A DNA stretch of 64,000 nucleotides from Hyphomonas polymorpha PS728 (lineage in GTDB: Bacteria; Pseudomonadota; Alphaproteobacteria; Caulobacterales; Hyphomonadaceae), in the NCBI RefSeq assembly GCF_000685315.1, contig NZ_ARYM01000004.1:62001-126000 (forward strand). Reading direction: 5' to 3'. The translations under genes and the position numbers were made by a program. Positions within the stretch are counted from its first letter, which is position 1. The number at the start of each line of letters is the position of its first letter. Below are positions 21,265-61,214 of the stretch, one piece after another. The notes beneath the pieces are model-generated. The model worked only from the letters and a program-made list of their open reading frames with translations. It did no database searches and was not told the origin of the DNA.

Positions 21265-21280
21265 TAGTACAACTGTTTCT
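21265..21280. promoter_or_regulatory. Cluster operator, weak copy (TAGTAC-AACT-GTTTCT)
   Basis: The left half matches the strong copies at 21469 and 47974 exactly; the right half keeps only the GT. It lies upstream of the SDR at 21182 in the same 389-bp divergent gap as the 21469 copy. Confidence 0.4.
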
Positions 21281-21468
21281 TCCCCAAGTGCCCTCCGCGG
21301 TCAACTCCCGCGCCCTTTCCCCAAGACCTGCGCGCCTCTCTAAACGCCTCAGGCCTAGCCAAAAGCGAGATAATCCTTAGAGAATCGGCCGGCCCATATC
21401 CCGCCCGACCGTCCCTCTCTGAACTTTTCGCTGGCGGATTGCCTCTGGATCACGCCCTGAAACCAGTG

Positions 21469-21484
21469 TAGTACACACGTACTA
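21469..21484. promoter_or_regulatory. Cluster operator, perfect copy (TAGTAC-ACAC-GTACTA)
   Basis: A perfect 6-4-6 inverted repeat, 88 bp before the CoA transferase start. It differs by one base, in the spacer, from the copy at 47974. It fits the wider consensus TANNAC-N4-GTNNTA. The rest of the 21183-21571 gap shows no gene. Confidence 0.7.
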
Positions 21485-21571
21485 TTTACAAGGCGAACCT
21501 GGCAGAAGTCACAAAAGCGACTGCGCCGGGATCCGGGGAACATCCGAACGGCCGGCCTATGGGAGAAAAAA

Positions 21572-22780
21572 ATGACAACGCGCAGCAACGATCAGGAAAA
21601 CGCAGGAAAGGGTCCTTGTGCGGGCCTCCGTGTCATCGAAGTTGCCACCATGGTGTCAGGCCCATTCGCCGGCCAGATGCTGGGCGACCTTGGAGCAGAA
21701 GTCATCAAGATCGAAACGACGGCCGGCGACCCCATGCGGGGCAACCACCCGATGCATGAAGGGATGTCAGCCTATTTCTCCCTCTTCAACAGAAACAAGA
21801 AAAGCATCTGCCTGGATCTCAAGTCGGATGAAGGACGGGCCATCGCGGCCGACCTGATCGCCGGCGCGGATGTCGTTCTCGAAAACTTCCGCCCCGGGAC
21901 AATGGAACGCCTGGGGCTGGGCTATGAAGCGCTCCGGCAACGCAATCCTCGGCTTATCTATGCCGGACTGTCCGGTTTTGGGGAAGATGGGCCGTACAAG
22001 GACAAACCTGCCTACGATCATGTCATTCAGGCTCTCAGCGGCGCGATGCCTGTGATGGGCTCACCCGAAGATCCCGCGCCCATACCACATATCATTGCCG
22101 ACAAGGTAGCCTCGATCCTGGCGTGCAATGCGATCATTGCCGCTCTGCTGCACCGGGAACGTGCAGGCGGCAAGGGGCAGAAAGTTTCCCTCTCGCTGAT
22201 GAAAGCCTACGCCGCCTTCCTGATGCCAGACTTGCTGAATAACTTCCTGTTCCAGACAAAGGACGTCCAGAAGATTCCCAACATCAAGATCCACCATCCG
22301 CTGCGATTGAAAGACGGTAGCGTAATGGGCCACGTGCAGCTGGATCCGCAGTTCAAAGGGCTCTGCCGGATTTTCGGACGCGAAGACCTTTTGGAGGATA
22401 AGCGCTACAACACGCCCTGGTCGCGTATCTTCAACTACGCCGACTTCTGGAAGGAGCTGGAAGAACCAGCTTCAAAGATGACCAAGGCGGAAGTCATTGC
22501 GCTCGCCGATGAGTATGGCGTCCCCCTTGCCCCCGTGAACAGCGTCGAAGAGTTCATGGCTGATCCGCAGGCCGTCCATGCCGAATGCTTCATCGATACC
22601 GAGGATCCCGAATTCGGACGGATGCGGACATCAGGGTTCTTTGCAGACTTCGAAGCGTCGCCACCGTCCATCCGGATGCGCGCACCGAAACTCGGGGAAC
22701 ACACCGGCGAAATCCTGAAAGGCCTTGGCCGGAGCGAGGATGACATTGAAGCTGCCCGAAAATCCCAGGCTATCAAATAA
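21572..22780 (+). CDS. CaiB/BaiF (family III) CoA transferase
   Basis: 402 residues. It opens with GLRVIEVATMVSGPFAGQML, typical of family III, and contains ENFRPGTMERLGLGYEAL, PAYDHVIQALSGAM and the aspartate in IADKVAS that forms the acyl-anhydride in this family. It would move CoA from a donor acyl-CoA to a free acid, activating a pathway acid without ATP. The start ATG follows GGGAGAAAAAA. A strong terminator follows the gene, so it is probably monocistronic. Confidence 0.9.
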   Translation: MTTRSNDQENAGKGPCAGLRVIEVATMVSGPFAGQMLGDLGAEVIKIETTAGDPMRGNHPMHEGMSAYFSLFNRNKKSICLDLKSDEGRAIAADLIAGADVVLENFRPGTMERLGLGYEALRQRNPRLIYAGLSGFGEDGPYKDKPAYDHVIQALSGAMPVMGSPEDPAPIPHIIADKVASILACNAIIAALLHRERAGGKGQKVSLSLMKAYAAFLMPDLLNNFLFQTKDVQKIPNIKIHHPLRLKDGSVMGHVQLDPQFKGLCRIFGREDLLEDKRYNTPWSRIFNYADFWKELEEPASKMTKAEVIALADEYGVPLAPVNSVEEFMADPQAVHAECFIDTEDPEFGRMRTSGFFADFEASPPSIRMRAPKLGEHTGEILKGLGRSEDDIEAARKSQAIK

Positions 22781-22787
22781 GACCTGA

Positions 22788-22822
22788 CCGGCCCCCATAG
22801 GGAATGGGGGCCGGAGAGTTTT
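22788..22822 (+). terminator. Rho-independent terminator after the CoA transferase
   Basis: CCGGCCCCCAT (22788-22798) pairs perfectly with ATGGGGGCCGG (22804-22814) around a 5-nt loop, followed by AGAGTTTT. It separates the transferase from the convergent kinase gene. Confidence 0.75.
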
Positions 22823-22940
22823 CGGTTCATGCGCCGCGACGCGCCGCCGACAGCGCTCTAGGGCAGATCCGGACAAAATCATCCAGGCCAGAAACAAGGA
22901 TGCCAGACCTTGGCATCAATCCACCAGGCTCCCCGCAACG

Positions 22941-24005
22941 TCACCGGCGGGGAATGCCTAGCGCGCCCAGCACATCAAGGTCTGCGGCAGCTGTTGTCAC
23001 AAGCTCGCCTGCAGCGTTGATCATTTCGATCGGCCCCGACTCAATTGGATTGCACGCGCCGCTTGGGACGGCATGCGCCATCTGTTGCCGGTAAACCAGC
23101 CAAGCCTGCTCAAACGAGTACACTTCCATTCCGGCGGCTCGGGCCGCATCCAGGTAATGCCGCAGAAGACGCTGCTCTTCTTTTCGCCGATCCTCGATCG
23201 GGAGCGCGCTCACGATCAACCATGAGACATCATGCATGTATGTGCCGGCAAAATAGAGCTGGAAGTCGAGAACACCCGGTTTCCCGTCACGCTCGAAGAA
23301 CATGTTTCCACCGTGAGCGTCGCCATGGCAAAGGGTTCTTGGCGCGGCATCGTTCAATTCCCACATGCGCTGCAAAGCATCCCGCAAAAGCTGGACGTCC
23401 GGAAAAGTCTGCTCAAGGCGTTGTCCGAACTGGCGTGTCTTCAATTCCTCCCAATGCTTGTCCCGAAGCACATATTGGAAGAACTCACGTTGAGGTTTTT
23501 CAAATCCGGCGAGGTCGCCAAGGCGCGGATCCCCCGACCATCGGGCGTGCATGGAAGCGAACTGCTCAAGCAATGCCGCGACCTCATCCACAGTGAGCGC
23601 GCCCCAGTTGCCAAATCTCGCGCCACGCGTCTGAACGATGTCTTCGAGCATCGTCAGTCCCTGCTTGTCGGCGTCACTCGCGGCGAAGTAACAATCAGGA
23701 ATATTCATCGGCACGTCTTGCGCCATTGCGTTGAAGAAACGGACTTCCTGTTGCAAAACAACCCAATAACGATTTCGCTGCTTTTCCGTAAATCCGCCCT
23801 TTATATAGACGGAGGCGGGCGGATTACCCACGGATCCGGGATCTGCATAATCGAGTGAAAATTTACACGACGCGGAAGTACCAATTCGCTCACCGGTGCG
23901 GGAGAAACCGGCGACTTTCACACCCGGAAATCTTGCTGAAAGTGCCTTGGTGAACCAATCGGCTGTAAAGTCATCGAAGGCACGTGGCAGCGCATCGTTA
24001 CTCAT
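22941..24005 (-). CDS. APH/CHK-type phosphotransferase, copy 1
   Basis: 354 residues, soluble. The kinase-fold signature LCHGDAHGGNMFF (catalytic Asp) and the metal-binding aspartate in VLDFQ are present, with an N-terminal lobe around SVYIKGGF. It belongs to the broad aminoglycoside/choline/ecdysteroid-kinase-like family, which phosphorylates small-molecule hydroxyls. The paralogue at 29408 shares FPGV/FPGI, YIKGGF and LDMIGALG-like segments. Context argues for a pathway intermediate rather than an antibiotic as substrate; that is inference. The ATG at 24005 follows GAGG; the first in-frame start, a GTG, is 5 codons earlier. Confidence 0.75.
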   Translation of the reverse strand: MSNDALPRAFDDFTADWFTKALSARFPGVKVAGFSRTGERIGTSASCKFSLDYADPGSVGNPPASVYIKGGFTEKQRNRYWVVLQQEVRFFNAMAQDVPMNIPDCYFAASDADKQGLTMLEDIVQTRGARFGNWGALTVDEVAALLEQFASMHARWSGDPRLGDLAGFEKPQREFFQYVLRDKHWEELKTRQFGQRLEQTFPDVQLLRDALQRMWELNDAAPRTLCHGDAHGGNMFFERDGKPGVLDFQLYFAGTYMHDVSWLIVSALPIEDRRKEEQRLLRHYLDAARAAGMEVYSFEQAWLVYRQQMAHAVPSGACNPIESGPIEMINAAGELVTTAAADLDVLGALGIPRR

Positions 24006-24025
24006 AACAAGCATCCTCACAAATT

Positions 24026-24041
24026 TAAAACAACCGACTAA
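24026..24041. promoter_or_regulatory. Cluster operator copy (TAAAAC-AACC-GACTAA)
   Basis: One base of the right GT is changed, otherwise it fits TANNAC-N4-GTNNTA. It lies 20 bp before the kinase start at 24005, so it would overlap the ribosome binding or early transcribed region. The remaining gap to 24395 holds no gene that I can support. Confidence 0.45.
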
Positions 24042-24395
24042 ATTTATGATGGGCTTTGGGGTGGCATAGAGTCAACCTCGGTGATGACGCGGTACGTGAA
24101 AGACCACATCTTCGGCTATTTTCTGCCGATCCCGATGGGCGCAGCGCAACAGACAGAGAGGCGATGAACGGGCATTCTCTGTGTATGTTTCTCGTTGAGC
24201 GGGCAGAGCCCCCTGCCCGGTTTGACAGTCTTTGTCTTCGGCCACCGGGGAGCGACGAAGCTCGGCGTTGTGATCTGCAGGTCAGGGACATCGCCTCCCA
24301 GACACGAAACTGAGTGGAGCAGGGAAATTCAGAGGGCGGATCGTAAGGCACGCGCTATCTTGAACCTGCATACAGGCACCGGAAAGTACAGCTTC

Positions 24396-25181
24396 TTACA
24401 ACATCGCCTTTTCTGAATGCGCGGTGGGCTCCAGTAGAGCCCCGCGCATGGCTTCCAATCTTTCCTCGGTCAGCCCCGCATTCATACGGAGGAAGGCCTC
24501 CGTCGAGAGATGCTTTCGTTCGATCCAGGCATAGCTCTGCTCCAGAAAGTCTGCGCGCACACCCGCAAGCATCCGCAGGCTCTCATCCGGCAGTATACGG
24601 CCGGCAATCTCCGCGAACTTGCGGGCACCGCTTTCGATCTTGTCACCGGAAATGGTCTGCTGTGTGGCCAGGTAGTCTGCAACAATACTGTCCCGCGTCA
24701 CGCCGAGGATCTCGAGCAGTAAAGCAACCGCCACACCGGTTCGATCCTTGCCGGCGGTACAATGAATAAGCGTCGGCGCCGGGTGCCCGGCGACATGATC
24801 GAAGTAAACCGAAAGGGCCGGCGCGACGGCCACGGGTATCGCCCGGTAGATCTTGTGAACCAGCGCCTGAACACTCGCAGGAGAGCAATCCTGCGCAAGC
24901 ACATCCCAAAAGGTGCCCCTGGCTTTCACATCGGTGCCGACGTTAAGCTGGCGGACATCCGCACAAACCTCCTGAACAGCCGTGTTCGGGAAATCGCGCG
25001 CCTCCGACGCACTCCGGATATCCAGAACCAGCCCTAATCTCAGCGAACGGAGGCGCTCCATATCGGCCGGGCGGGGCTCCAGGATGGCCTCTGAACGGAA
25101 CAGCCTGGAGGGTTTGACCTGTCTTCCGTCAGCTGTCGGAAGACCTCCGATATCCCGGAAATTCGGCGCGCAATTCAACAA
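24396..25181 (-). CDS. Tyrosine-protein phosphatase family, MptpB-like
   Basis: About 261 residues. The family opening NFRDIGGLPTADGRQVKPSR with LFRSEA is present, and the active-site P-loop HCTAGKDRTG (CX5R) is intact. Related enzymes dephosphorylate phosphotyrosine, phosphoserine or phosphoinositides. It follows the MFS gene by 23 bp if the TTG at 25181 is used (GGAG 10 nt upstream). An ATG at 25292 is also in frame but would lie inside the MFS gene and add residues not typical of the family. A phosphatase in a cluster with two small-molecule kinases is intriguing, but a functional link is unproven. Confidence 0.75.
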   Translation of the reverse strand: MLNCAPNFRDIGGLPTADGRQVKPSRLFRSEAILEPRPADMERLRSLRLGLVLDIRSASEARDFPNTAVQEVCADVRQLNVGTDVKARGTFWDVLAQDCSPASVQALVHKIYRAIPVAVAPALSVYFDHVAGHPAPTLIHCTAGKDRTGVAVALLLEILGVTRDSIVADYLATQQTISGDKIESGARKFAEIAGRILPDESLRMLAGVRADFLEQSYAWIERKHLSTEAFLRMNAGLTEERLEAMRGALLEPTAHSEKAML

Positions 25182-25204
25182 GATAGTCTGGCTCCGTTTT
25201 CGAC

Positions 25205-26712: not shown

Positions 26713-26728
26713 TCAAGCAAACGTTTTA
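26713..26728. promoter_or_regulatory. Cluster operator, degenerate copy (TCAAGC-AAAC-GTTTTA)
   Basis: The right half and spacer match the 29328 copy (AAACGTTTT); the left half is poor. It lies 186 bp upstream of the MFS start in a 463-bp gap that otherwise shows no gene. Confidence 0.4.
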
Positions 26729-27749: not shown

Positions 27750-27917
27750 TGCGCTCCCCGCCCTCCCTGGCGATTTCATGAAGTTCCCGAAGCACATCAC
27801 AATCACCCAAGCCCTCCGGAGGCAAGCCGGGATAGATCATTTGCTTTATCCCGCTTTGTTGAAGCTGTTGAAAAACTTTATTTATTACAGAATACTAAGT
27901 GATATGGATTTTTAAAT

Positions 27918-27933
27918 TAAAATGATTGTACTC
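27918..27933. promoter_or_regulatory. Cluster operator copy (TAAAAT-GATT-GTACTC)
   Basis: Matches TANNAC-N4-GTNNTA with one change in each half. It sits in the AT-rich divergent gap between the hydratase at 27749 and the monooxygenase at 28042 and could serve both. Confidence 0.45.
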
Positions 27934-29327: not shown

Positions 29328-29343
29328 TAAAACAAACGTTTTG
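29328..29343. promoter_or_regulatory. Cluster operator copy (TAAAAC-AAAC-GTTTTG)
   Basis: AAAAC and GTTTT form a perfect inner 5-4-5 inverted repeat. It lies 65 bp before the second kinase gene (29408). Confidence 0.6.
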
Positions 29344-30487: not shown

Positions 30488-31629
30488 CTAAGTCTTCAGC
30501 GAGCGGCCAATGACCAGCTTGAGGATCTCGGACGTGCCGCCATAGATCCTTTGCACCCGGGCATCGCGCCACATGCGGGCAATGGGATATTCTTCCATAT
30601 AGCCGGCCCCGCCGTGGAGCTGCAGGCACTTGTCGAGAGACGCCCACTGCGTTTCGGTGTGCCACAGCTTCGCGGCCGACGCCTCTACAGCTGTCAGCTT
30701 GCCCGCAACGTGTCGGTTGATGGCCCAGTCGAGGTGGGACCAGCCAACCTGGAGCTCTGTCGCAATTTCGGCGAGCACGAACTGCGTGTTTTGGAAGTCG
30801 AACACCGACCGGCCAAATGCCCGACGATCAGACGTAAACCTTACTGTATCGTCCATCGCGCGCTGAACGCTTGCCTGCCCCATAATCGCCTGCGAGAGAC
30901 GCTCCTGCGGCATCAGGGTCATGATCGCGGCAAACCCACGCCCTTCCCCGCCAATCAATGCATCAACCGGTACGCGCACCTCGTCGAAGAACAGCTCGGA
31001 CGTATCTGCAGAATGCTGGCCGATCTTGTCGAGCTTGCGCCCGCGCGAAAAGCCCGCGCTGTCTGCATCAACGACCAGCAGGCTGATACCCTGCGCTCCA
31101 CCGTCTGGATCAGTCTTGCAGCCACGATAACGAAATCTGCATTCTGGCCGCTGGAGATATAGGTCTTTGCGCCACTGATGACATACTCATTGCCATCCCG
31201 GATAGCCCGCGTACGGATTGATTTAAGGTCTGACCCCGCGCTCGGCTCGGTCATAGCGATCGCCGAGATCAGGGATCCATTCACCATGCCGGGGAGGTAT
31301 TTCCGCTTCTGCTCTTCGGTCCCGAGATGAATGAAATAATCCGCAATGATATCGGACTGGAGCGGCAGGCTCGCAGACGATCCTGCATAGGTCAGTTCTT
31401 CCGTCACGATTGCATTGTACGAAAAGTCGAGCCCCGGACCACCATAGGCCTCTGGTACGGTAGGACACAGCAAACCGGCCTCGCCCGCCGCCCTCCAGAA
31501 GCTGCGCGGCGTAAGGCGCTCCCGTTCCCAGGTATCCAGATCAAGCTCCAGAGCGAAGAAGCGCCGCACGGAATCGCGAAACATCGCGTGAGTATCGCCC
31601 TGACCGAGGCGTTCTATGGGAATGGCCAT
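30488..31629 (-). pseudogene. Acyl-CoA dehydrogenase broken by a frameshift
   Basis: Two frames together give a full-length acyl-CoA dehydrogenase of about 380 residues. The first (from ATG 31629) covers the N-terminal and middle domains with AMTEPSAGSDLKSIRT, then runs out of phase after FVIVAAR. The second resumes with TDPDGGAQGISLLVVDADS and continues through VRVPVDALIGGEGRGF to the catalytic GAGYMEEYPIARMWRDAR and the end. The break is a one-base loss near 31114-31116. The intact paralogue at 45255 reads straight through the same place (VAKTDMSAGARGISLFLVES). A true mutation or a sequencing error are both possible. It is the last gene of the dioxygenase-ferredoxin operon. Confidence 0.85.
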
Positions 31630-33108: not shown

Positions 33109-33124
33109 TAGAACAAATGTCTAA
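33109..33124. promoter_or_regulatory. Cluster operator copy (TAGAAC-AAAT-GTCTAA)
   Basis: Fits TANNAC-N4-GTNNTA at all fixed positions except the TA/AA ending. It lies 59 bp before the dioxygenase start at 33050, in the gap shared with the TetR gene at 33507. No gene is seen in the rest of that 456-bp gap. Confidence 0.5.
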
Positions 33125-33506
33125 AACAAAGTCGCAAAAAGGTGAAGGACGAAAATGCCGGATTCGAGAGATAGGGATGAGATAGAAGGCCTGGGGTGGC
33201 CGCCGAGGCCCTCCGGGCCGCATGGGAAACCAGAACGCCGGACGCTGCTTTAACCGGCCAGGGCTGAACAGGGCTGGTCTGCCTCAGAGACCGAAGTCAC
33301 TTCCGGCACTCAGACAACTTCAAGCCAGTCTATTCTGATCAGTCGATTTGCAGGCCTGCCCATATCGCGCGCTTCAGTTCAAAATGAGATATAGGAGTTA
33401 GGACAAACGATTGAACTTGTGCAACGCAACAACTAGTTTTACGCCAGTGTTTCCACATTACATACTGCCCAACCACACATTGACGCATAGCCAGAGGATT
33501 CCAGCG

Positions 33507-34232
33507 GTGAACGACTTAGACACCAAGAGCCGAATTAAGGTCTGCGCCCGCCGACTGTTCGCCGAACGCGGCGTTGAAGCCGTAACTGTCCGCGAAATCG
33601 TCGCGGCGTCTGGCGCCAAGAATGGCGGCTCTCTGAATTACTACTTCAAGTCCAAGGAAGGACTGATCTCCGAGCTGCTCGCCGACGTCTTTCGCGACAG
33701 CAGCGACGGCTGGCTCGAAGGCCTGTCTGAGCTGCAGCGCGCCGGGGGCCCAAAGAGTGTACGGGACATTGTCACAATTCTCGTTCGCTGGCCGGATGAA
33801 TATAACAAGATGGAAGACCCCTCTCCGACAGCGAATCGCTTCCTGAGCAGCCTGCTCAGCACACGGCGGAAAATGGTCCGCGACTTTCTTGAGGTCGGAA
33901 ATTTCTCTGTCTTCGGTCAGTTGCTTCGTTACATTCGTGATCTCAAGTCGGATCTTCCCCAATCGGTTGTCGAGCAAAGGCTTATCTACTTTTCCTGGTA
34001 CGTCATCTCTGCCAAGGCCGCGCTGGAAAGTTATATCGCGTCAGGCAAGAAAAACCCGATCTGGGAGGGTTATGATCCGCTGGAGAACCTGATTGATTGC
34101 GGCACCGGGCTGCTCGAGGCCCCTTGCTCCGCAGCGGAGAAAAGCGCCCCGGGCGACACCGCCAGGAACAAATCCGGCGGCAACAAGAACCAGGCCCGGA
34201 TACGCGCCCTGCATGCGGCATTTCCCGTATAA
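33507..34232 (+). CDS. TetR family transcriptional regulator
   Basis: 241 residues. The N-terminal helix-turn-helix is clear (ARRLFAERGVEAVTVREIVA, then NYYFKSKEGLISELL), and the ligand-binding domain is longer than average. The GTG at 33507 has AGAGGA 9 nt upstream; there is no ATG in a suitable place. It is divergent from the dioxygenase-ferredoxin operon. TetR proteins usually bind short palindromes with a small spacer, so this is the leading candidate for the TANNAC-N4-GTNNTA operators; that pairing is inference. Confidence 0.85.
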   Translation: MNDLDTKSRIKVCARRLFAERGVEAVTVREIVAASGAKNGGSLNYYFKSKEGLISELLADVFRDSSDGWLEGLSELQRAGGPKSVRDIVTILVRWPDEYNKMEDPSPTANRFLSSLLSTRRKMVRDFLEVGNFSVFGQLLRYIRDLKSDLPQSVVEQRLIYFSWYVISAKAALESYIASGKKNPIWEGYDPLENLIDCGTGLLEAPCSAAEKSAPGDTARNKSGGNKNQARIRALHAAFPV

Positions 34233-37055: not shown

Positions 37056-37071
37056 TTAGACAAGGGTTTTA
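37056..37071. promoter_or_regulatory. Cluster operator copy (TTAGAC-AAGG-GTTTTA)
   Basis: On the minus strand this reads TAAAAC-CCTT-GTCTAA, fitting TANNAC-N4-GTNNTA apart from the last bases. It lies 48 bp before the hydratase and 68 bp before the IclR gene. Confidence 0.5.
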
Positions 37072-37138
37072 AATTCCGGGTCTTATCTTTTCAATCAACA
37101 CCGCTATGGGAGTTCTCAGGATACGGGAGAAAACGCAT

Positions 37139-37933
37139 ATGTCTCGAACGCACACGACATCGCTCGAAAAGTCACTGGCCCTCCTGAGAAGCATCGTCGC
37201 GGACGGCGGCAATACGCCATTCAATGAAATTGCGGCTGGTCTCGACCTGCCGCTGTCGACAGCTTATCGCCTGGCCTCACAACTGGTGGATGCCGGCTTT
37301 GCCAGCCGCTACGGACCCAATCTTTACGGGCCGGGCCTCGCTGCGACGCTGCTGTACAGTCAAAGCGATGCGTCCGCGCATATTACGCGCGTCGCACGGC
37401 CGCTGCTGAAACAATTGTCCCTGGAAACCGGTCTGACCTCTCATCTTGGCATCCTGGAGAGCGGCATGGTCACCTACAAGATCCGCATCCCGGGCCGCCC
37501 CCCCAGAGCGGCCAGCTTCACACGAGAAGGCATGCAGCTGGAGGCTTACTGCTCGGCACTTGGAAAGGTGCTGCTTGCAGGATTGCCAGACATCGATCTT
37601 GATGACTATCTGCACGAGGGCGCTTTCGTGCCGCTGACGCCTCATACCCTGATTGAGCCCGCCTCCCTGAAACAGGAAATTCTGAAAACCCGGCAGACCG
37701 GATTTGCAATCGACGACAGGGAAGTCAGTGAGGATATGATCTGTCTTGCTGTCCCCGTCGCCGGGCCACTGGGAGAAACCGTCGCCGCGGTATCCGTTTC
37801 GATGCTGGTCGGCAAAGGTCAGAACACAGACCCGATGGGCTTTCACCCCTTCCTCGAAACCTGCGCAAGGACACTCGGTGAACTTCTTGGCGCGCCGAGG
37901 GACGCAGCTCAGGAGGCTGATCAGCGTTCCTGA
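37139..37933 (+). CDS. IclR family transcriptional regulator
   Basis: 264 residues. The winged helix is at the N-terminus (SLEKSLALLRSIVADGG, EIAAGLDLPLSTAYRLASQL) and the effector-binding IclR domain follows (SHLGILESGMVTYKI, YCSALGKVLLAGLP, FAIDDREVSEDMICLAVP). The ATG at 37139 follows GGGAGAA. It is divergent from the lower meta-pathway operon and convergent with the amidohydrolase, either of which it might control in response to an aromatic metabolite. Confidence 0.9.
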   Translation: MSRTHTTSLEKSLALLRSIVADGGNTPFNEIAAGLDLPLSTAYRLASQLVDAGFASRYGPNLYGPGLAATLLYSQSDASAHITRVARPLLKQLSLETGLTSHLGILESGMVTYKIRIPGRPPRAASFTREGMQLEAYCSALGKVLLAGLPDIDLDDYLHEGAFVPLTPHTLIEPASLKQEILKTRQTGFAIDDREVSEDMICLAVPVAGPLGETVAAVSVSMLVGKGQNTDPMGFHPFLETCARTLGELLGAPRDAAQEADQRS

Positions 37934-40963: not shown

Positions 40964-40979
40964 TAAAATAATTGTTTTA
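40964..40979. promoter_or_regulatory. Cluster operator copy (TAAAAT-AATT-GTTTTA)
   Basis: Part of a 19-bp segment AACTAAAATAATTGTTTTA (40961-40979) that recurs identically at 61196-61214. It lies between the Rieske alpha gene and the divergent GntR gene. Confidence 0.6.
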
Positions 40980-41143
40980 CGCGATAACAACAGTGCGTCA
41001 ATGTGCGATCAGGAACTGGACAGGTGGTGTATGCCGTTCTGCGTACCCTTGCTCGCCACAACCGCGACAGGGGTTGTTTGGACATCTTGGAGAAGGAAGA
41101 ATGCTTCGGCTGTGACAGCTGCAGAGTTGAAGCCGGACGGATC

Positions 41144-41869
41144 ATGACCCAACGTCTTTTTGAAGAAGTCTATAACTCTATCCGCCGCGACCTGATGCGA
41201 GGAAAGCTGAAGCCCGGCGATAAGCTTCCGTCCGAGCGCGACCTCGCTGAGCAACTCGGTGTGGGCCGCCCTGTGGTCCGCGAAGCGCTGCGCGCACTTG
41301 AAAACTCCGGGATGCTTGAACTGCGCAAGGGCGTCAGCGGGGGCGCCTTCATTCGACAGGGAGATGGCCGGGCAGTCTCCAGGACAGTCAATGACCTCGT
41401 ATTCCTGGGGAAGCTGTCACTGGACCAGCTCACCGAGGCGCGGAGCTACCTGCTCGACCAGGCCGTCCGGCTCGCCTGCGCGCGCGGGACCGATGCCGAC
41501 TTCGCGGCACTGGACGCAAACGTCGAACGCATGCGCGTCGCTATCGAAGCGCAGGCTGTCGAGGCGTCGATCTCTGAGATCATGGACTTCTACGCACTCC
41601 TGGGCACCGCCGCCAAGAATGACGTGCTGACCGTGATAATTGGATCGCTATCGGAGATCATCGCCCAGATCCTGCTCGCTCTCCGGCCAGAACACCTGAC
41701 CGATCTCGTCGCCATGAGGCGGGAAGTTCTGGATAAGATCAGGCAGCGCGATGCCGACGCAGCCTCAGCTGCAATGGCGGCGCACATGGCAGTGCTGCAC
41801 GCCTATGTTGTGCAAAAATCCGGCAACCTGCACATGCTGGATCTCGAGCCATTTGATAGCCACGCCTGA
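41144..41869 (+). CDS. GntR family regulator, FadR/FCD type
   Basis: 241 residues. N-terminal winged helix (KLPSERDLAEQLGVGRPVVR, EALRALENSGMLELRKG) and an all-helical FCD effector domain. The ATG at 41144 follows GGACGGATC; the frame is open 47 codons upstream without family similarity. It is divergent from the Rieske operon with the 40964 palindrome in between, so it may be a local regulator responding to an organic-acid ligand. Confidence 0.88.
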   Translation: MTQRLFEEVYNSIRRDLMRGKLKPGDKLPSERDLAEQLGVGRPVVREALRALENSGMLELRKGVSGGAFIRQGDGRAVSRTVNDLVFLGKLSLDQLTEARSYLLDQAVRLACARGTDADFAALDANVERMRVAIEAQAVEASISEIMDFYALLGTAAKNDVLTVIIGSLSEIIAQILLALRPEHLTDLVAMRREVLDKIRQRDADAASAAMAAHMAVLHAYVVQKSGNLHMLDLEPFDSHA

Positions 41870-44635: not shown

Positions 44636-45254
44636 AGTTTATCCCTCCGCTTTACTTCCTGTAGGCTGCGCCCATCACACCAGACGAGAGACAGCGCATA
44701 GAATCTTACCTGTTTCAGCCGTTTCGAGATGCCATTCCGTTGTTCGCGGTGCGCAATCCCGGCGTCCAAGACCAGGGCGCCCACGGAACACCCTCGCCAC
44801 GGCTTCATTAGTTCGTTTGTTTTAGTTCGACGTCAAGCCCTTGCGCGCAGGAAGGCCATCGATCTGCCTTCCCTTCCCATGCGGAGCGTCCCGATACGGA
44901 CAGCTTTGCCGCCAGCTTTCCGAAGATGACGCCTGATACTTGATTGTGCCTTGTGCCCGCCCAGCCGGCCCCAGCCTCCCTCAGGCTCAGACAGAAAAGC
45001 GAGACAGATAGGGACGCAGGCCACGATCACGCCCGACGTCCCGAGCAGAACAGCCTGCCTGGCCCTTTCACATTGCGAAGCTGTCACGGATAAGCGACGT
45101 GCTGAGGGGTGAGGATGCCCGCGCTCCCGAGCGCCTCCTTCTGGGACAGAGACGTTGGCAAGCCCGGCCTGGGATAAGCCTCGGTATCAACACGCCCGCC
45201 CCTCTGCCGAAAACAGCTATGCTTAGATTTTAGAGAAACCTCCGCCCGCGCAGG
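44636..45254. other. Gene-free stretch, 619 bp, with an operator copy
   Basis: No supportable gene on either strand. It holds the operator at 44809-44824 and should contain the promoter of the acyl-CoA dehydrogenase pair. The rest, toward the end of the dehydrogenase at 45255, shows nothing I can name. Confidence 0.5.
44809..44824. promoter_or_regulatory. Cluster operator copy (TAGTTC-GTTT-GTTTTA)
   Basis: One mismatch to TANNAC-N4-GTNNTA. On the minus strand it reads TAAAAC-AAAC-GAACTA, sharing AAAACAAACG with the 29328 copy. Confidence 0.5.
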
Positions 45255-47430: not shown

Positions 47431-47605
47431 AATAGCCTCTTCTCCCCTCGGATTTTTCTGGTTTACCGCCTGAAACATCCGTTCTATTCCGGTTTTGATC
47501 AACCCTCAATTTGTCGGCATCGGCGTTTTTTTTCCGCCATGTGAGACGCAGGCCTGAAAATGCAGGCCGGGGCGGAGCCGCCTGACGTCCCACAGGCGCT
47601 GAGGA

Positions 47606-47973: not shown

Positions 47974-47989
47974 TAGTACAGACGTACTA
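47974..47989. promoter_or_regulatory. Cluster operator, perfect copy (TAGTAC-AGAC-GTACTA)
   Basis: A perfect 6-4-6 inverted repeat 67 bp before the enoyl-CoA hydratase start at 48056; 15 of 16 bases match the 21469 copy. Confidence 0.7.
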
Positions 47990-55171: not shown

Positions 55172-55981
55172 TTATGTCCGGGTCTGAAGCTGGAGCCCGC
55201 CAGATACGCGGATGCACTCACCTGTAACGTAGCTGGCGAGGTCGCTCACGAGAAACTCGACGACGCCGGTGATATCGCTGGCCTGGCCGAGGCGCCTGAG
55301 CGGGATCGCATCGGCCTGCCCGCCCGTTGCAAGATTGCGCGCGGCTGCCTGGCTGGCGACGCGCGGTGTCGCGATAAGGCCCGGAGCGATGCAGTTGACC
55401 CGAACCTGCTTCGGGCCGAGTTCGACGGCAAGCGACCTGGTGTATTTCTCGACGGCCGCCTTCGACGCGGAATACATGGCGAAGCGGGCTGCGGCGTCGT
55501 CCAGGCACACGCCGACCGTGGAGATATTGACGATGACCCCGCCCTCCTTGATCAGGGCGGGGACGCAAGCCTGGCACATGTTCACGGCCGTATGGAAATT
55601 GGCGGCAAACAATGTGTTCCGGTCCTCCTCGCTCGCCATCGATGCCGAACTGGAACCGATCGGCGTGATCGCGCCGCCGGCATTGTTGACGAGGATATCA
55701 ATACGGCCGAAATGACGCTCGATCTGATGCACCGCGTCGAATGCTGCTTTCCGGTCAGACAGATCGGCTTCAATGGCGATACTGTCCCGGCCGAGATTCA
55801 GGATCTCGTCACGGACGCTGGCAGCTGACAGGGTTTCTCCATACCGGGCGGCAACTTTCAGATCGATGTCGATGATTGCAACATTGGCGCCAAGCTCGGC
55901 GAGGCGGAGGGCATGCGAACGGCCCATCCCTCCGGCGCCGCCTGTGACAATCGCGAGCTTCCCCTGCAGCGAAGTCTTCAT
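55172..55981 (-). CDS. SDR family oxidoreductase
   Basis: 269 residues. Motifs VTGGAGGMGRSHALRLAELG, VNNAGG and YSASKAAVEKYTRSLA are complete. It is the first gene of an SDR-NTF2-SDR operon. AAGGA is correctly spaced for the ATG at 55981; the earlier ATG at 55990 is too close to it. A cis-dihydrodiol or hydroxyacyl-CoA dehydrogenase role is possible. Divergent from a LysR gene, with a cluster operator copy 16 bp before its start. Confidence 0.87.
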   Translation of the reverse strand: MKTSLQGKLAIVTGGAGGMGRSHALRLAELGANVAIIDIDLKVAARYGETLSAASVRDEILNLGRDSIAIEADLSDRKAAFDAVHQIERHFGRIDILVNNAGGAITPIGSSSASMASEEDRNTLFAANFHTAVNMCQACVPALIKEGGVIVNISTVGVCLDDAAARFAMYSASKAAVEKYTRSLAVELGPKQVRVNCIAPGLIATPRVASQAAARNLATGGQADAIPLRRLGQASDITGVVEFLVSDLASYVTGECIRVSGGLQLQTRT

Positions 55982-55996
55982 ATCGCCCATTCCTTT

Positions 55997-56012
55997 TAAA
56001 ACAATCGCATTA
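55997..56012. promoter_or_regulatory. Cluster operator copy (TAAAAC-AATC-GCATTA)
   Basis: The left half is exact; the right half differs at the T of GT. It is close to the SDR start (55981) in the 100-bp gap shared with the LysR gene, so a LysR site may overlap. Confidence 0.4.
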
Positions 56013-56081
56013 CCAATCGGCACATTGTCATTCGAGTCATAATCTGCACAAGTAGGGCTTCAGATTTCTGGAAAGGTCCGG

Positions 56082-57032
56082 ATGCGGTATAACCTGCCTC
56101 CCCTGAACGCCCTCAGAGCGTTTGAAGCAACCGGCCGGACCGGCAGCCTGAGTGCTGCCGCGCGCGAGCTGCGCGTTTCCGTCGGCGCCGTGAGCCGGCA
56201 CGTGTCGATCCTTGAAGCCTATTTTGCCTGCGAACTCTTCGAACGCCACCATAATGGCGTCGACCTCACACAATGGGGTAAGCCGCTTCACACGGCCATC
56301 GCCACGGCCTTCGACACGATAGACGCCGCCTGCCGGGACGTCGACACCGGCGCCGCCCGCCCGATCCGCCTGCGCACGTTCACGAGCATGGCAACCGACT
56401 GGCTGACACCCCGGCTCGGAGAATTCCGCCAGTCTCATCCAGATCTGTCATTACAGCTGAAACAGGCATTCAATGATATCAGTTTTGCCGTGGACCCTCT
56501 GGACGCCGCGGTCACGGCGCAAACCATTGTCGAAAGCGGTATTCGCCAGTTCGAGCTTTTTCCGACCCTCTTTACACCTGTTGTGACGCCGGCTCTGAAA
56601 ACGGATACGACCCGTAATATTCTGACGGGAGACAATCCGGCGCCCCTGCTCTTCACGCGCCGGGAAATTCCATTCTGGGAAACATTCTATGAGGCCATCG
56701 GCCTTCCGCCGCCTGTCTTCGAGCGCGGGCTGGAATTCGACAGCCTCAGCCTTACCTACCAGGCCGCAAGGCGCGGTGCAGGCGTTGCGCTCGGGCTTCT
56801 GTTCTTTGTGGCCGACGACCTTGCCGCAGGCTCGCTGGTGCCGGCTTCCCAGACCTGTATAGACGTGCAGCTGCCGCACTACCTTTACATCCGCGCGGGG
56901 CGAAAAAAACATCCCGGGACGGAGACTCTGACAGACTGGATCCAGCGCGAAGCAGCCAGGACGAATGCAGGTCTCGACGCCCTGTTCGGAACCGTTCTTT
57001 CAACTCCGGTCAAGACAGTCATGAAGCGCTGA
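56082..57032 (+). CDS. LysR family transcriptional regulator, GcvA-like
   Basis: 316 residues. N-terminal helix-turn-helix LPPLNALRAFEATGRTGSLS, then AARELRVSVGAVSRHVSILE, followed by a substrate-binding domain (IRLRTFTSMATDWLTPRLGE). The opening PPLNALRAFEA is typical of the GcvA/AmpR branch. GGAAAGG lies before the ATG. Divergent from the SDR-NTF2-SDR operon, its most likely target. Confidence 0.9.
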   Translation: MRYNLPPLNALRAFEATGRTGSLSAAARELRVSVGAVSRHVSILEAYFACELFERHHNGVDLTQWGKPLHTAIATAFDTIDAACRDVDTGAARPIRLRTFTSMATDWLTPRLGEFRQSHPDLSLQLKQAFNDISFAVDPLDAAVTAQTIVESGIRQFELFPTLFTPVVTPALKTDTTRNILTGDNPAPLLFTRREIPFWETFYEAIGLPPPVFERGLEFDSLSLTYQAARRGAGVALGLLFFVADDLAAGSLVPASQTCIDVQLPHYLYIRAGRKKHPGTETLTDWIQREAARTNAGLDALFGTVLSTPVKTVMKR

Positions 57033-57114
57033 ACCTGTTTGCCGTTACAGACCCGGCCGCAGATCATCCGGTACGCATTCCCCCGAACACACTTGTGTTC
57101 TCGCCAGCCAAATG

Positions 57115-57130
57115 TAAAACGTATGTTTTG
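57115..57130. promoter_or_regulatory. Cluster operator copy (TAAAAC-GTAT-GTTTTG)
   Basis: AAAAC-GTAT-GTTTT is a perfect inner 5-4-5 inverted repeat, 40 bp before the dehydrogenase/reductase start at 57170. Confidence 0.6.
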
Positions 57131-57169
57131 ATTGGGTCGGTCCATCAAAAGTGTACAGAGGGAATTGCG

Positions 57170-58189
57170 ATGAAAGTATGGGAAGTGCAGGACGCCTGGG
57201 GCATCGACAATATGCGCCGGGTCGAGCGGGAAATACCCTCCGCGCTCGCGCCCGAAGAAATCCTGATCAAGCTCCACGCCGCTTCAGTCAATTACCGCGA
57301 TCTCGTGACGATCGAGAACAAGACCCCGTTTGGCGCCCTCCCCCAGATTCCCCTCTCGGACGCCGCTGGAGAGATCGTGAAAATCGGCGCTCGCGTGGAT
57401 CGGTTCAGCCTGGGGGACCGGGTCTGCCCGAGCTTTTTCCCAAACTGGCAGGCCGGCCCGGTCCGAAGGGCTGACCGGTCTGTCTCGCTCGGCTCGGCCA
57501 CCGCGCCCGGTGTGCTTCAGGAATACATCGTGACCCGGCAGGACGCCGCATCGCGGTTCAGTGACACCCTGTCCTACCTGGAAGCGGCAACCCTGCCCTG
57601 CGCCGGCCTCACAGCCTGGCGCGCTCTCGTCGATGAAGGCAACCTCCAGCCCGATGACTGGGTCCTGGTTCAGGGAACGGGCGGCGTATCCATCTTTGCG
57701 CTGCTCATCGGCGAAATGCTCGGCGCCCGGATTATCGTTACGTCGTCTTCGGACGAAAAGCTTGAACGGGCGCGCCAGCTCGGCGCAGACGCCACGATCA
57801 ATTACAGCGATACCCCCGACTGGGGCAAGGCCGTCCTGGAAATCACCCGCGGCGCTGGCGCCGATATCATCGTGGAAGTCGGCGGTGGCGGGACCATCAA
57901 CCAGTCGCTGACTGCCGCGGCTGTCGGCGCCCGGATCGTCATCATCGGCGTGCTTGGCGGACGTTCGCAGGAGCTCCTCATGCCGGCTATCTTTGGCAAG
58001 AACCTGCACCTGAAAGGTATTTCGGTCGGCAGCCGCGCGCAGTTTGAAGACATGAACGCCGCCATCTCGGCACATGGCCTGAAACCCGTGATCGACAAGG
58101 TCTTCGCATTTGACGACGCCCCGGAGGCCATCCGCCATCTCGCGAGCGGCCAGCACTTCGGAAAAATCGTTATCGATTTCGCCAAATGA
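57170..58189 (+). CDS. MDR-superfamily oxidoreductase (alcohol dehydrogenase/quinone reductase-like)
   Basis: 339 residues. The catalytic domain ends near residue 150, followed by the cofactor motif WVLVQGTGGVSIFALLIGEM. The structural-zinc cysteine cluster seen in the enzyme at 62817 is absent, which favours a zinc-poor or zinc-free reductase. AGAGGG lies before the ATG at 57170. It overlaps the next gene by ATGA. Substrate unknown; reduction of an enone or oxidation of an alcohol are both possible. Confidence 0.85.
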   Translation: MKVWEVQDAWGIDNMRRVEREIPSALAPEEILIKLHAASVNYRDLVTIENKTPFGALPQIPLSDAAGEIVKIGARVDRFSLGDRVCPSFFPNWQAGPVRRADRSVSLGSATAPGVLQEYIVTRQDAASRFSDTLSYLEAATLPCAGLTAWRALVDEGNLQPDDWVLVQGTGGVSIFALLIGEMLGARIIVTSSSDEKLERARQLGADATINYSDTPDWGKAVLEITRGAGADIIVEVGGGGTINQSLTAAAVGARIVIIGVLGGRSQELLMPAIFGKNLHLKGISVGSRAQFEDMNAAISAHGLKPVIDKVFAFDDAPEAIRHLASGQHFGKIVIDFAK

Positions 58190-58860
58190 GCCGGAATTTC
58201 AAACTCATCTGCACCGTCCACGGCCCATCCGAGGAAGAGGCGATCGCAAATGCGGTGATCCTTCATGGACTTGGCCAGACTGAAGATATTGTGTTTGAGC
58301 AGCTGAAGGGGGCCATTCCGCCGGGCGTGCGCGTCCTGGCCCTGCAGGCCCCCTTTCCTTTCGGACCCGCGTCCGATGCAGGGTATGCCTGGTTTAACAT
58401 TGACATCGCCGGGGCGGCAGGACCGCCCAGGCCTGACCTCGCGCAGGAATCTTTCAGCCGCCAGATCATCTCAGACTTCGTCGATACACTCGCGCCGCGC
58501 CTGCCGCGCATACTGTTCGGATTTGGTCAGGGCGGCGTCATGGCCGTCCACCTCTACCTGCAACGCCCCGAAAGCATGCAGTTGTGCATCGCCGCTTCCG
58601 CAAGAGTGATGCCTCACCTGATCGAAGAATTTCCCCCGGGACCCCGTCACCAGGGCGTCCCGGTTATCTGGGTGCACGGCGAAAGCGATCCGGTCATTCC
58701 ATTTGAAAGCGCCAGGGCAAGCGTCGGGACGCTGACGGCAGCGGGCACCTGCCTGAAATGGATCACGCACCGCGGCGGGCATGAATGGCCCGGCCATCAC
58801 AGCCAGGACGTCATGCTGGAAATCGAAAGGCTAGTTCGACAGGGCAGAAGCCCAAACTGA
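58186..58860 (+). CDS. Carboxylesterase/phospholipase-like alpha/beta hydrolase lacking the nucleophile serine
   Basis: 224 residues of the phospholipase/carboxylesterase family: VILHGLGQTED near the N-terminus, D168 (HGESDPVIPF) and H199 (HRGGHEWPG) in the normal positions. At the nucleophile elbow the expected G-F-S-Q-G reads GFGQGG, with glycine 114 encoded by GGT at 58525-58527. One base change from AGT would explain it. The protein is probably inactive as a classical serine esterase, or has a non-hydrolytic role. ATGA overlap with the upstream reductase. Confidence 0.78.
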   Translation: MSRNFKLICTVHGPSEEEAIANAVILHGLGQTEDIVFEQLKGAIPPGVRVLALQAPFPFGPASDAGYAWFNIDIAGAAGPPRPDLAQESFSRQIISDFVDTLAPRLPRILFGFGQGGVMAVHLYLQRPESMQLCIAASARVMPHLIEEFPPGPRHQGVPVIWVHGESDPVIPFESARASVGTLTAAGTCLKWITHRGGHEWPGHHSQDVMLEIERLVRQGRSPN

Positions 58861-59026
58861 CCCCTCCTGCTCCGATAATTCCCACATTGTGCGAAATTTC
58901 AGCCTGAGCGGCACGGCATGGCCGGGCCCGCCCAATGGTAATACCTTTACGATGGCAAACTTCCCCGGATAACCTGACCGCAAAAGAAACTGTCAACAGT
59001 CGCGTTCCAAGGGAGAAATCAGCATC

Positions 59027-61060
59027 ATGAAGCCGCGCATAAATGGCTCCGTTGCCCTCGATCAGACGCCTAAAGGCCCTGTCTCATCCCCCCCCGACTG
59101 GGGTGACTACCTGTGGGCGCCGTCCGGCAGCCGGATCCGGAATTCCAACCTGATGCGCTTCCTTGCCTGGCTGGAACAGGAGCGAAATCTTGAGTTTTCC
59201 ACCTATGCCGACCTCTGGAGCTGGTCCGTATCGGACCTGGAGGGCTTCTGGTCTGCCATCTGGGATCACTTTGGCGTCGAAGCCGAAAAGCGGTATGATC
59301 GCGTTGTATCAACGCACGATATGCCCGGCGCGATCTGGTTTGAAGGCTCACGGCTGAACTTCGCCCAGAACATTCTCCGTCACGAGATCACCACGCCTGA
59401 GAAGACCGCGATCTTTGCTTTCTCAGAAGACGCACCGATGCGGGAAATCTCGTGGTCAGAACTTGGAGCGTCTGTTCGGCGCATCGCCACGGCCATGCGG
59501 TCTCTTGGTATCAAATCCGGCGATCGCGTGATCTGTTATCTGCCCAACAGGTCTGAAGCCATCGTCGCGCAGCTTGCATCTGCCGCAATCGGCGCCGTAT
59601 TCTCATCGGCTTCCCCGGAGTTCGGCGCCAAGACAGTGATTGACCGTTTCGGGCAGCTCGATCCCAAGCTGATCTTCGCGGCGCCCTCCTATCGTTTCAA
59701 CGGGTCAGAGAAGGATAAGCGCGAAAACATCGACACCGTTCTGAGGTCGATCCCAAGTCTTGAACATGTCGTCTATGTCACCTCGCCTGGCGCCGAGATG
59801 CCGGCGCCCTCGCCGATCAGATCCCACAATTGGGATACGCTGATGGCGCAGTCAGACGGGTCCGCCCGCGGGTTCGCCTATGAACAGGTCGCTCATGACC
59901 ACCCTCTCTGGATCCTGTTCTCCTCAGGCACGACAGGGCTGCCTAAAGCCATCGTTCACAGTCATGTCGGCATCCTGCTGGAACATCTGAAGTCGGAACA
60001 TTTCTCCGCAGAGCTCGGACCGGACTCCACGATCTTCTTCTATACGACCACCAGCTGGATGGTCTGGAACTCACTGATCTGCACGCTGCTCACAGGATGC
60101 AACATCGTCATCTATGACGGCAGTCCGGTTTATCCCGATGCCGCTGCACTCTGGCGCATAACTGAAAAAGCAGGCGTATCGGCGCTGGGTATGAGCCCCG
60201 GCCTCGTCCAGAAAATGGCGTCCTCGAATCTTGTGCCTGCCGAACGATTTGACATCGAACGCCTGCAGATGATCGTCCTGGGCGGCGCGCCCTCCACACC
60301 GGAAACTTTCTGCTGGTTCCACGAGAACGTCAAAGAAGATCTCTGGGTCACCTCCCAGGTCGGCGGCACGGACCTGTGCGGCACCATTGCCGGTGGGATC
60401 GCTATCGCGCCGGTTTTTGCCGGCGAAATACAGGGGCCGGCACTGGGTATCCATGTCGACTGCTTTTCACCCGGCGGCGAGAGCCTGCGAAACCAGACCG
60501 GCGAACTTGTCATCCGGTCTCCCTTCCCGTCGATGCCAATCGGTTTCTGGAACGATCCTGAAAACCAGCGTTATCACGACAGCTATTTCAGCGGCTTTCC
60601 CGGAACCTGGCAGCAGGGCGATCTGTGCCTGATCAATGACCGGCACGGAATATATGTATTCGGACGATCCGACGCGACGCTGAACAGGAACGGGATCCGG
60701 ATCGGGACGGCAGAGATCTATCGCACACTCGAAACAATGCCTGAGATAGACGACTCGCTCGTCGTCTGTGTATCCGACCAGATCATCCTCTTCGTTCAGA
60801 TGCGTGAAAGCAGGACCTTGAGCCCTGAGCTCTCGGCGGCCGTCTGCAACGCCCTGAAGCGCGAAACGAGCCCCCGCCACGTCCCGGACCGGATCGTGGA
60901 AGTTCCCGCCATTCCGTATACACTCACCGGAAAGCGGCTTGAGGTGCCGGTCAGGCGGCTCCTGGAAGGCGCCGCACTCTCAGATGTTGCTGACCCCCAG
61001 ATGCTGCGCGACGCTCAGGCTCTGAAATGGTTTGAAAACTTCCGGTCCGGTTCGCTGTAG
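59027..61060 (+). CDS. Acetoacetate-CoA ligase-type acyl-CoA synthetase
   Basis: 677 residues, the length of acetoacetyl-CoA synthetases. ANL adenylation motifs: SSGTTGLPKAIVHSH (P-loop), GDLCLINDRHGIYVFGRSDA (hinge) and the catalytic lysine in TLTGKRLEVPVRR. The N-terminal RNSNLMRFLAWLEQ and ESFWSAIWDHF-like segment (DLEGFWSAIWDHFGVE) are typical of this branch. It activates acetoacetate or a related small or branched keto acid. GGGAG lies before the ATG. It is followed by a 7-bp stem-loop (61060-61077). Confidence 0.9.
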   Translation: MKPRINGSVALDQTPKGPVSSPPDWGDYLWAPSGSRIRNSNLMRFLAWLEQERNLEFSTYADLWSWSVSDLEGFWSAIWDHFGVEAEKRYDRVVSTHDMPGAIWFEGSRLNFAQNILRHEITTPEKTAIFAFSEDAPMREISWSELGASVRRIATAMRSLGIKSGDRVICYLPNRSEAIVAQLASAAIGAVFSSASPEFGAKTVIDRFGQLDPKLIFAAPSYRFNGSEKDKRENIDTVLRSIPSLEHVVYVTSPGAEMPAPSPIRSHNWDTLMAQSDGSARGFAYEQVAHDHPLWILFSSGTTGLPKAIVHSHVGILLEHLKSEHFSAELGPDSTIFFYTTTSWMVWNSLICTLLTGCNIVIYDGSPVYPDAAALWRITEKAGVSALGMSPGLVQKMASSNLVPAERFDIERLQMIVLGGAPSTPETFCWFHENVKEDLWVTSQVGGTDLCGTIAGGIAIAPVFAGEIQGPALGIHVDCFSPGGESLRNQTGELVIRSPFPSMPIGFWNDPENQRYHDSYFSGFPGTWQQGDLCLINDRHGIYVFGRSDATLNRNGIRIGTAEIYRTLETMPEIDDSLVVCVSDQIILFVQMRESRTLSPELSAAVCNALKRETSPRHVPDRIVEVPAIPYTLTGKRLEVPVRRLLEGAALSDVADPQMLRDAQALKWFENFRSGSL

Positions 61061-61077
61061 CTGTGTTCTGACACAGC
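61060..61077 (+). terminator. Stem-loop at the end of the synthetase gene
   Basis: GCTGTGT-TCTG-ACACAGC begins at the last base of the stop codon. The 7-bp stem is perfect but no T-run follows, so terminator function is uncertain. Confidence 0.35.
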
Positions 61078-61198
61078 GGCTTGCTGGCAGTACGTAAGGC
61101 ACAAATCGCCGGAACGGCCCCGCAACAGGGACGGCAGTTCCATGACGGAGGCGTCACCGGGCGCCTACGGATTAGCTGAGGCACGCTTTACATTGAAC

Positions 61199-61214
61199 TA
61201 AAATAATTGTTTTA
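61199..61214. promoter_or_regulatory. Cluster operator copy (TAAAAT-AATT-GTTTTA)
   Basis: Identical to the 40964 copy over 19 bp. It lies 39 bp before the CoA ligase start at 61253. Confidence 0.6.

Follow-up and report, generated by a model that had tools for sequence, protein, structure and literature searches.

MbdR of Azoarcus sp. CIB is a TetR-family repressor that acts on one conserved palindrome at several promoters of an aromatic-catabolism cluster, including its own (PMC4424350), and EdcR of Caenibius tardaugens, another TetR-family repressor, acts on a palindrome common to several promoters of an estrogen cluster (PMC8700777). The TetR-family regulator PsrA of Pseudomonas aeruginosa has the operator GAAACN4GTTTC (PMC13104628), and a single repressor, PheR, controls an aromatic catabolic operon in the alphaproteobacterium Sphingobium SHPJ-2 (PMC13273656); these statements follow the available parts of the reports. 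Here we describe a related arrangement in a 64,000-nucleotide stretch of Hyphomonas polymorpha PS728 (contig NZ_ARYM01000004.1, positions 62,001 to 126,000), called the window below. A 16-bp palindrome recurs through a catabolic gene cluster that encodes a TetR-family regulator (33507..34232, + strand). The palindrome is almost certainly a cluster-wide operator, and comparison of sequences suggests that it is probably the operator through which the TetR protein would repress the cluster. In the literature searched, parts of which were available as extracts, no published regulon or pathway for this group was apparent, which is no proof that none is in print.

Concentration of the palindrome in a catabolic cluster

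Positions are those of the window unless preceded by a contig or locus name; C4 is the contig carrying the window. A preliminary description of the window had listed 14 copies of the palindrome, and every string was found where it had been placed. Compared with the pattern TANNACNNNNGTNNTA (TANNAC-N4-GTNNTA), two of the 14 (21469 and 47974) fit exactly, eight have one mismatch (29328, 33109, 37056, 40964, 44809, 55997, 57115 and 61199) and four have two (21265, 24026, 26713 and 27918). The consensus is better written TAAAAC-ANNT-GTTTTA, with half-sites such as TAGTAC and TAGAAC tolerated. A symmetrised weight matrix built from the 14 copies reads about TA(A/g)(A/t)AC-(A/g)NN(T/c)-GT(T/a)(T/c)TA; a match scoring at least 12 was counted as a site. 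Leave-one-out scores ranged from 9.8 to 24.2, and 12 of the 14 were at least 12, the exceptions being 21265 (9.8) and 37056 (11.8).

Fourteen matches to TANNACNNNNGTNNTA with at most one mismatch occur in the window, all right of 21 kb, against a mean of 2.95 and a maximum of 8 in 100 shuffles of the window. Ten are listed copies, 21458 overlaps a listed copy and 47471 is a good extra site; 37381 and 55259 score below 6 with the matrix and look like chance. By the matrix there were no sites in 1–20 kb of the window and 19 in 20–64 kb, a count inflated by the 14 training copies, and just 3 in a background of 14 stretches from six other contigs (278 kb in total). Elsewhere on C4 we found none in 1–60 kb, 4 in 125–165 kb and none in 165–185 kb. 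The absence of copies left of 20 kb thus holds at this threshold, with weak matches (score at least 8) only at 2203 and 18336. Sites do not stop at 61 kb but continue at window-equivalent positions 66407, 67431, 67991 and 83967. These, together with 27833, 47471 and the weak 33399, had not been listed before. Among the five further window sites, 27833, 33399 and 47471 are near gene starts, and 28944 and 35399 are inside genes. Of the listed copies, which had all been called intergenic, 10 of 14 are not wholly within a gene, but 33109, 47974, 55997 and 57115 are centred 18–70 nt within the 5′ end of the longest possible open reading frame (ORF), whose true start may be later.

In the whole genome, TAAAACN4GTTTTA with at most one mismatch has six matches, all in a single 55-kb stretch, C4 91–146 kb. 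Two of them (C4 128407 and 145967, the latter equivalent to window position 83967) lie beyond the window and played no part in deriving the consensus. When two mismatches were allowed there were 33 matches, 13 of them within the cluster; seven of the other 20 score at least 12, so isolated matches exist elsewhere in the genome. For TANNACNNNNGTNNTA with at most one mismatch, 17 of 113 genomic matches were in C4:83–146 kb (63 kb, 1.55% of the genome), where about 1.8 were expected. A count of TAAAACN4GTTTTA with at most one mismatch over 299 genomes of the order gave matches in 180. It was left out of the evidence because a reversed-pattern control was higher in many genomes and because only the window's genome and its near-twin stood out (6 versus 1 control match each), the other TetR-bearing genomes being unremarkable.

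Conservation of the sites in related clusters

Orthologues of the TetR gene (66–98% identity) were found in eight other genomes among the 299. These are G080, an alphaproteobacterial metagenome-assembled genome (MAG) and near-twin of the window's genome, G000; G001, G060 and G180, of the window's family; and Hyphomonas beringensis (G115), H. atlantica (G120), H. chukchiensis (G105) and Henriciella aquimarina (G145), both genera being Hyphomonadaceae. Around the orthologue there were 25 sites in G080 (60 kb), 13 in G180, 11 in G060, 12 in G001 and 10 in G115 (40 kb each), 14 in G120 (40 kb), 4 in G145 (14 kb), and 4 in G105 (17 kb) with 6 more in 20 kb on a second contig. Taken together, G105 and G120 had 24 sites in 77 kb, a number reached by none of 200 permuted matrices.

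The sites are conserved at the presumed heads of transcription units. We searched from −260 to +75 of gene starts in G000, the eight genomes with TetR orthologues and one 20-kb stretch of Sphingomonas colocasiae (Sphingomonadaceae), accepting homologues with at least 45% identity and 55% coverage; the division into unit-leading and internal genes is our own, from gene order. A site was present at 95 of 154 instances of leading genes (59 of 106 without G000 and G080) and at 2 of 81 instances of internal genes (0 of 57 without these two). Four leading genes, ACAD45255, FAD50540, FADmo52125 and AACS59027, had no site in any genome of this test.

The strongest outside test of the motif is S. colocasiae. 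Its homologous cluster (contig C17) has 17 sites in 74 kb, and none of 200 column-permuted matrices reached 17. There was one site in the 20 kb left of the cluster and none in five control stretches of 20 kb (100 kb) taken from that contig. The TetR protein of this cluster is 56% identical and has an identical recognition segment, AKNGGSLNYYF; GntR (51%) and LysR (45%) homologues are also present. The earlier suggestion of a cluster-wide operator, one with a sharp left boundary, is backed by genome-wide enrichment and by conservation at presumed unit heads.

The candidate regulators

Four regulators of the cluster were recognized by Pfam: the TetR protein, an IclR-family protein (37106..37933, +), a GntR/FCD protein (41003..41869, +) and a LysR-family protein (56082..57032, +). 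The TetR protein had been named as the leading candidate, and comparative evidence, namely an invariant DNA-binding domain, paralogues at satellite loci and rivals that in part diverge or are absent, suggests that it is probably the binder. It has an N-terminal helix-turn-helix domain (TetR_N, PF00440, 5.5e-12, 45.7 bits against a cut-off of 24), and its residues 17–54 are invariant in nine of nine orthologues though overall identity drops to 66%. Similarity to any PDB chain or NCBIfam model searched was weak. The NCBIfam PsrA model gave 30.4 bits against a cut-off of 300, a weak profile similarity that places the protein outside the PsrA subfamily. An AlphaFold2 model (mean pLDDT 54) was too poor for a fold search.

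Satellite loci carry TetR paralogues with 43% identity in G060 and G180 and 36% in S. colocasiae. The three loci have 7, 6 and 4 sites, respectively; shuffles gave means of 0.47 and 0.77 for the first two, and one of 200 permuted matrices reached the 4 of S. colocasiae. Each also carries a kinase related to the EcKL/APH kinase encoded at 22941 (EcKL22941; 71–83%). No IclR or LysR homologue was detected in the satellite stretches at E ≤ 0.01, and a distant GntR (27%) was found in L085, the G180 locus, only. Among the ten ORFs of L084 scanned in Pfam there was no other regulator. We considered letting the loci of the TetR paralogues alone decide the binder and rejected this, as regulators of the main cluster in the same genomes could act in trans. 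More distant TetR homologues (30–33%), several of them closely related, had a match of at least 12 about 60–100 nt upstream of their own gene at 6 of 10 loci. Across 1.19 Mb of control loci around 70 unrelated TetR genes, 30 matches scored at least 12; the 160 kb with the lowest GC accounted for 16.

Several observations weigh against control of the palindrome by the TetR protein, or against the motif itself. At the promoter of the TetR gene itself the match is no more than weak, scoring 12.7 in G000 and G080 and 6–12 in the other eight instances; the strong site in the gap between the TetR gene and the VOC-type dioxygenase gene belongs to the latter, which is divergent. G301 (Sphingomonadales PMG_139) has a related cluster and a TetR protein with a near-identical recognition segment, yet the 4 sites in its 92 kb do not exceed the control (38 of 200 permuted matrices reach 4). 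In G300, one TetR locus (7.3 kb) contains a single site, a number that shuffles also reach, and another (9.8 kb) contains none. For L088, L093, L095 and L096, the observed counts of 6, 4, 1 and 2 are equalled by the maximum among 60 dinucleotide shuffles, so little weight can be put on single short loci. Other regulators encoded in the same genome could act on the satellite loci in trans. The LysR protein accompanies the cluster almost as faithfully as the TetR protein, and the IclR group-2 consensus shares a core with the palindrome. In a blind enumeration of gapped-hexamer palindromes over the 41-kb interval (4,096 half-sites × 13 gaps, at most two mismatches, 138 kb of background), TAAAAC-N4 ranked only 20th of 53,248 (10 seen, 1.8 expected). 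The sequence of the interval alone is therefore not decisive; it is the genome-wide and cross-genome tests that single the motif out.

This rank, and the crowding of matches in AT-richer control loci, would fit palindromes that are AT-rich promoter sequence or chance picked by eye. That explanation is hardly credible: it is contradicted by the concentration of matches in one part of the genome, by sites outside the window that did not enter the consensus, by the contrast between unit heads and internal genes, by the permuted matrices and by GC-matched control loci, which hold 5 matches in 246 kb. Among the regulators, the least well excluded rival is the LysR protein, which would bind the palindrome and activate the units. 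Of eight genomes tested, seven have a homologue (E ≤ 1e-50), G105, G120 and S. colocasiae among them, and six of the seven loci scanned contain sites. Phylogeny alone does not exclude the LysR protein, because 49 of the 66 residues of its DNA-binding domain are retained in G105 and G120 and because it is missing only from G301 among the eight. It is nevertheless unlikely as the binder. The classical LysR box, T-N11-A, has an odd centre, unlike the even-centred palindrome, and about 20 promoters would be unusual for a LysR activator. No LysR homologue was detected at the satellite loci (E ≤ 0.01) or, at E ≤ 1e-50, in G301, but G301 is itself without site enrichment.

Binding by the IclR protein is more improbable still. 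It co-occurs with the TetR protein in all nine clusters of the order that have a TetR orthologue, and the consensus given for group-2 IclR operators in the available part of the report, TGRAACAN1-2TGTTYCA, shares with the palindrome the core AAC-ANNT-GTT (PMC8222616). The palindrome does not fit that consensus in full: the core AACANNTGTT is similar, but none of the 14 copies begins with TG and none ends with CA, although the additional site 47471 does begin with TG. Of 62 residues in the IclR helix-turn-helix, 27 are kept in G105 and G120, a lower proportion than in the remainder of the protein, while the motif is unchanged there. The S. colocasiae cluster, with its 17 sites, has no IclR homologue (E ≤ 1e-20), and in the whole genome a single IclR match reaches E ≤ 1e-15, with 41% identity and at a distance of 464 kb along the contig. 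The promoter between the IclR and hydratase genes itself has a site in four of nine instances. The GntR protein, marginally the least probable of the three, has in its promoter the site 40964, one of the two top scorers, and a site is conserved there in the six genomes with a close GntR; in S. colocasiae it adjoins the TetR gene and keeps 46 of 66 residues of the winged helix-turn-helix (wHTH). In G105 and G120, however, it is 39–42% identical, keeps 39 of 66 wHTH residues and has a changed recognition helix. No homologue (E ≤ 1e-25) was found in G145, G300 or G301, where the G145 contig ends just past the oxygenase and a gap is possible. Operators of the FadR subfamily, as described in the accessible part of the report, have TKGT/ACMA boxes, GT coming before AC, with a usual spacing of 3 nt (PMC4494728); in the palindrome the order is opposite, AC preceding GT with 4 nt between, which does not fit membership.

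Tandem palindromes and distant TetR homologues

Pairs of matches offset by 13 bp numbered nine in the cluster set, and no other offset between 1 and 60 gave more than two. Since homologous loci were counted repeatedly, this is no more than a lead. Three overlapping palindromes at 13-bp steps directly follow the TetR paralogue at L084:10284–10325 and at the equivalent place in L085, and similar 13-bp pairs precede several distant TetR genes. A second TetR homologue of G000 (31%; C11:82113–82775, L060) is preceded by a tandem palindrome of its own, TTATCCAATTGATTTA, which recurs in relatives (L050 and L054). In TetR-like genes of Rhodocyclaceae MAGs with a NVAAVNYHFGSK segment (L119:7061 and L129:3129), an AAAC-N4-GTTT palindrome begins 54 nt before the segment, a placement like that of PsrA.

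Individual sites and gene content

Below, presence in other genomes and counts of instances refer to any site in the conservation test, not to the exact letters of the window copy. From left to right, the copy TAGTACAACTGTTTCT (21265..21280; score 13.5, the weakest in leave-one-out scoring) is 90 nt upstream of a short-chain dehydrogenase/reductase (SDR) gene at 20421. TAGTACACACGTACTA (21469..21484; 16.3) is 96 nt upstream of a CaiB-type CoA transferase gene at 21572 and is also present in G060, G180 and G001 but not in G115. The EcKL22941 ORF has TAAAACAACCGACTAA (24026..24041; 14.4) 14 nt upstream, present in G080 and not in G120. In the main cluster of G180 (L072:5731–6341) this kinase gene was matched only as broken pieces; a near-full-length copy (83%) stands next to the TetR paralogue in the satellite locus L085. 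TCAAGCAAACGTTTTA (26713..26728; 16.9) is at the start of the MFS transporter ORF 25205 and occurs at all six instances of that gene. Between ORFs 26991 (−) and 28036 (+) are the additional copy TAGATCATTTGCTTTA (27833..27848; 17.7) and TAAAATGATTGTACTC (27918..27933; 16.3), the latter 110 nt upstream of the FAD monooxygenase gene 28036. The second EcKL/APH kinase gene, 29351, is preceded by TAAAACAAACGTTTTG (29328..29343; 21.4) in four of four instances.

The 5′ end of the extradiol dioxygenase (VOC) ORF 32145 contains TAGAACAAATGTCTAA (33109..33124; 19.2), conserved in eight of ten VOC instances. The weak operator-like site TAGGACAAACGATTGA (33399..33414; 12.7) is about 100 nt upstream of the TetR start and reaches the threshold in two of ten TetR instances (G000 and G080). 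TTAGACAAGGGTTTTA (37056..37071; 14.7), another weak copy, is between the hydratase gene 36217 (−) and the IclR gene. One of two identical copies, TAAAATAATTGTTTTA (40964..40979; 25.3), is between the Rieske oxygenase alpha gene 39525 (−) and the GntR gene, with sites at seven of nine and six of seven instances of these genes, respectively. TAGTTCGTTTGTTTTA (44809..44824; 19.0) is upstream of the acyl-CoA dehydrogenase gene 43433, and the additional copy TGAAACATCCGTTCTA (47471..47486; 16.2) is at the 5′ end of the alpha/beta hydrolase ORF 46588, each in eight of eight instances. TAGTACAGACGTACTA (47974..47989; 16.8) lies within the longest enoyl-CoA hydratase ORF, 47912, 70 nt from its 5′ end; a site of this type is present in G060, G180, G001 and G115, and the copy in G000 and G080 is just outside the search frame. 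TAAAACAATCGCATTA (55997..56012; 21.2), between the SDR gene 55172 (−) and the LysR gene, is found at seven of seven SDR and six of six LysR instances, and TAAAACGTATGTTTTG (57115..57130; 20.5), near the start of the zinc alcohol dehydrogenase ORF 57095, at six of six. The second copy of TAAAATAATTGTTTTA (61199..61214; 25.3) is 46 nt upstream of the acyl-CoA synthetase gene 61253 and occurs at three of four instances. A promoter scan of 41–61 kb gave 5 promoter-like sites with 4.8 expected, so we make no statement on overlap between sites and promoters.

By Pfam, the cluster encodes Rieske oxygenase alpha and beta subunits, a 2Fe-2S ferredoxin domain protein, a VOC-type extradiol dioxygenase and an FAA-type hydratase, as well as several acyl-CoA dehydrogenases, CoA ligases, a CoA transferase, EcKL/APH kinases and an MFS transporter. 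It also encodes a 4-hydroxy-2-oxovalerate aldolase (above the NCBIfam cut-off) and an acetaldehyde dehydrogenase; an acetoacetate-CoA ligase is also above its NCBIfam cut-off. A 3-hydroxyisobutyrate-dehydrogenase-like protein would, in our view, fit the release of an isopropyl unit. An acyl-CoA dehydrogenase gene at 30488..31629 (−) appears as two overlapping ORFs in different frames, while its G080 relative aligns as one stretch; this is a frameshift, either of the gene itself or of its assembled sequence. Genes for a HipA-like protein and a sigma-70-type (ECF-like) factor (L024:1492–4193; C4:146.5–149.2 kb) follow immediately to the right of the last strong site (C4:145967), close to where the regulon ends on that side.

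Proposed mechanism and comparison with known systems

A dimer of the TetR protein would sit on each copy of the palindrome near a transcription start and repress it. A compound of the pathway, for which a CoA thioester or a ring-cleavage intermediate is our guess, would release the protein, and oxygenase, ring-cleavage, acyl-CoA, kinase and transport genes would be derepressed together. We infer that the sites serve repression and not activation, and likewise the ligand and where the sites lie with respect to promoters; by analogy with MbdR and EdcR, the TetR protein is taken as a ligand-released repressor. It would stand above the GntR, LysR and IclR regulators, since sites lie in the divergent GntR and LysR promoters and, weakly, in that of IclR. 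A wider proposal is tentative, and we rate it at somewhat less than an even chance: one TetR protein, placed above these three regulators, would be the master switch for about 20 operators in a 63-kb regulon and for the satellite loci, and would mark a kinase-linked aromatic pathway common to Hyphomonadaceae and Sphingomonas, with overlapping operators at 13-bp spacing in places.

Such an operator would give the pathway a testable regulon boundary and link ring cleavage to genes whose roles are unclear, kinases and a transporter among them. Conserved in two families of Alphaproteobacteria, it would also form, with its repressor, a new repressor–operator pair and a possible biosensor.

To the extent that the available parts of the reports describe them, the known systems differ from this one in operator, substrate or scale. 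MbdR has the operator ATACN10GTAT, a known inducer, 3-methylbenzoyl-CoA, an anaerobic pathway and four named promoters, against about 20 sites here (PMC4424350). The operator proposed for EdcR, TnnCnnTACnAnTnGTAnnGnnA, has five bases between TAC and GTA, and the substrate is estrogen (PMC8700777). PheR belongs to the IclR family, with a minimal motif GCAACG and one promoter studied (PMC13273656). The PsrA operator has nearly the architecture of the palindrome described here, but its target genes are other than those of this cluster (PMC13104628). The regulon is new, and its mode of control is of a familiar kind.

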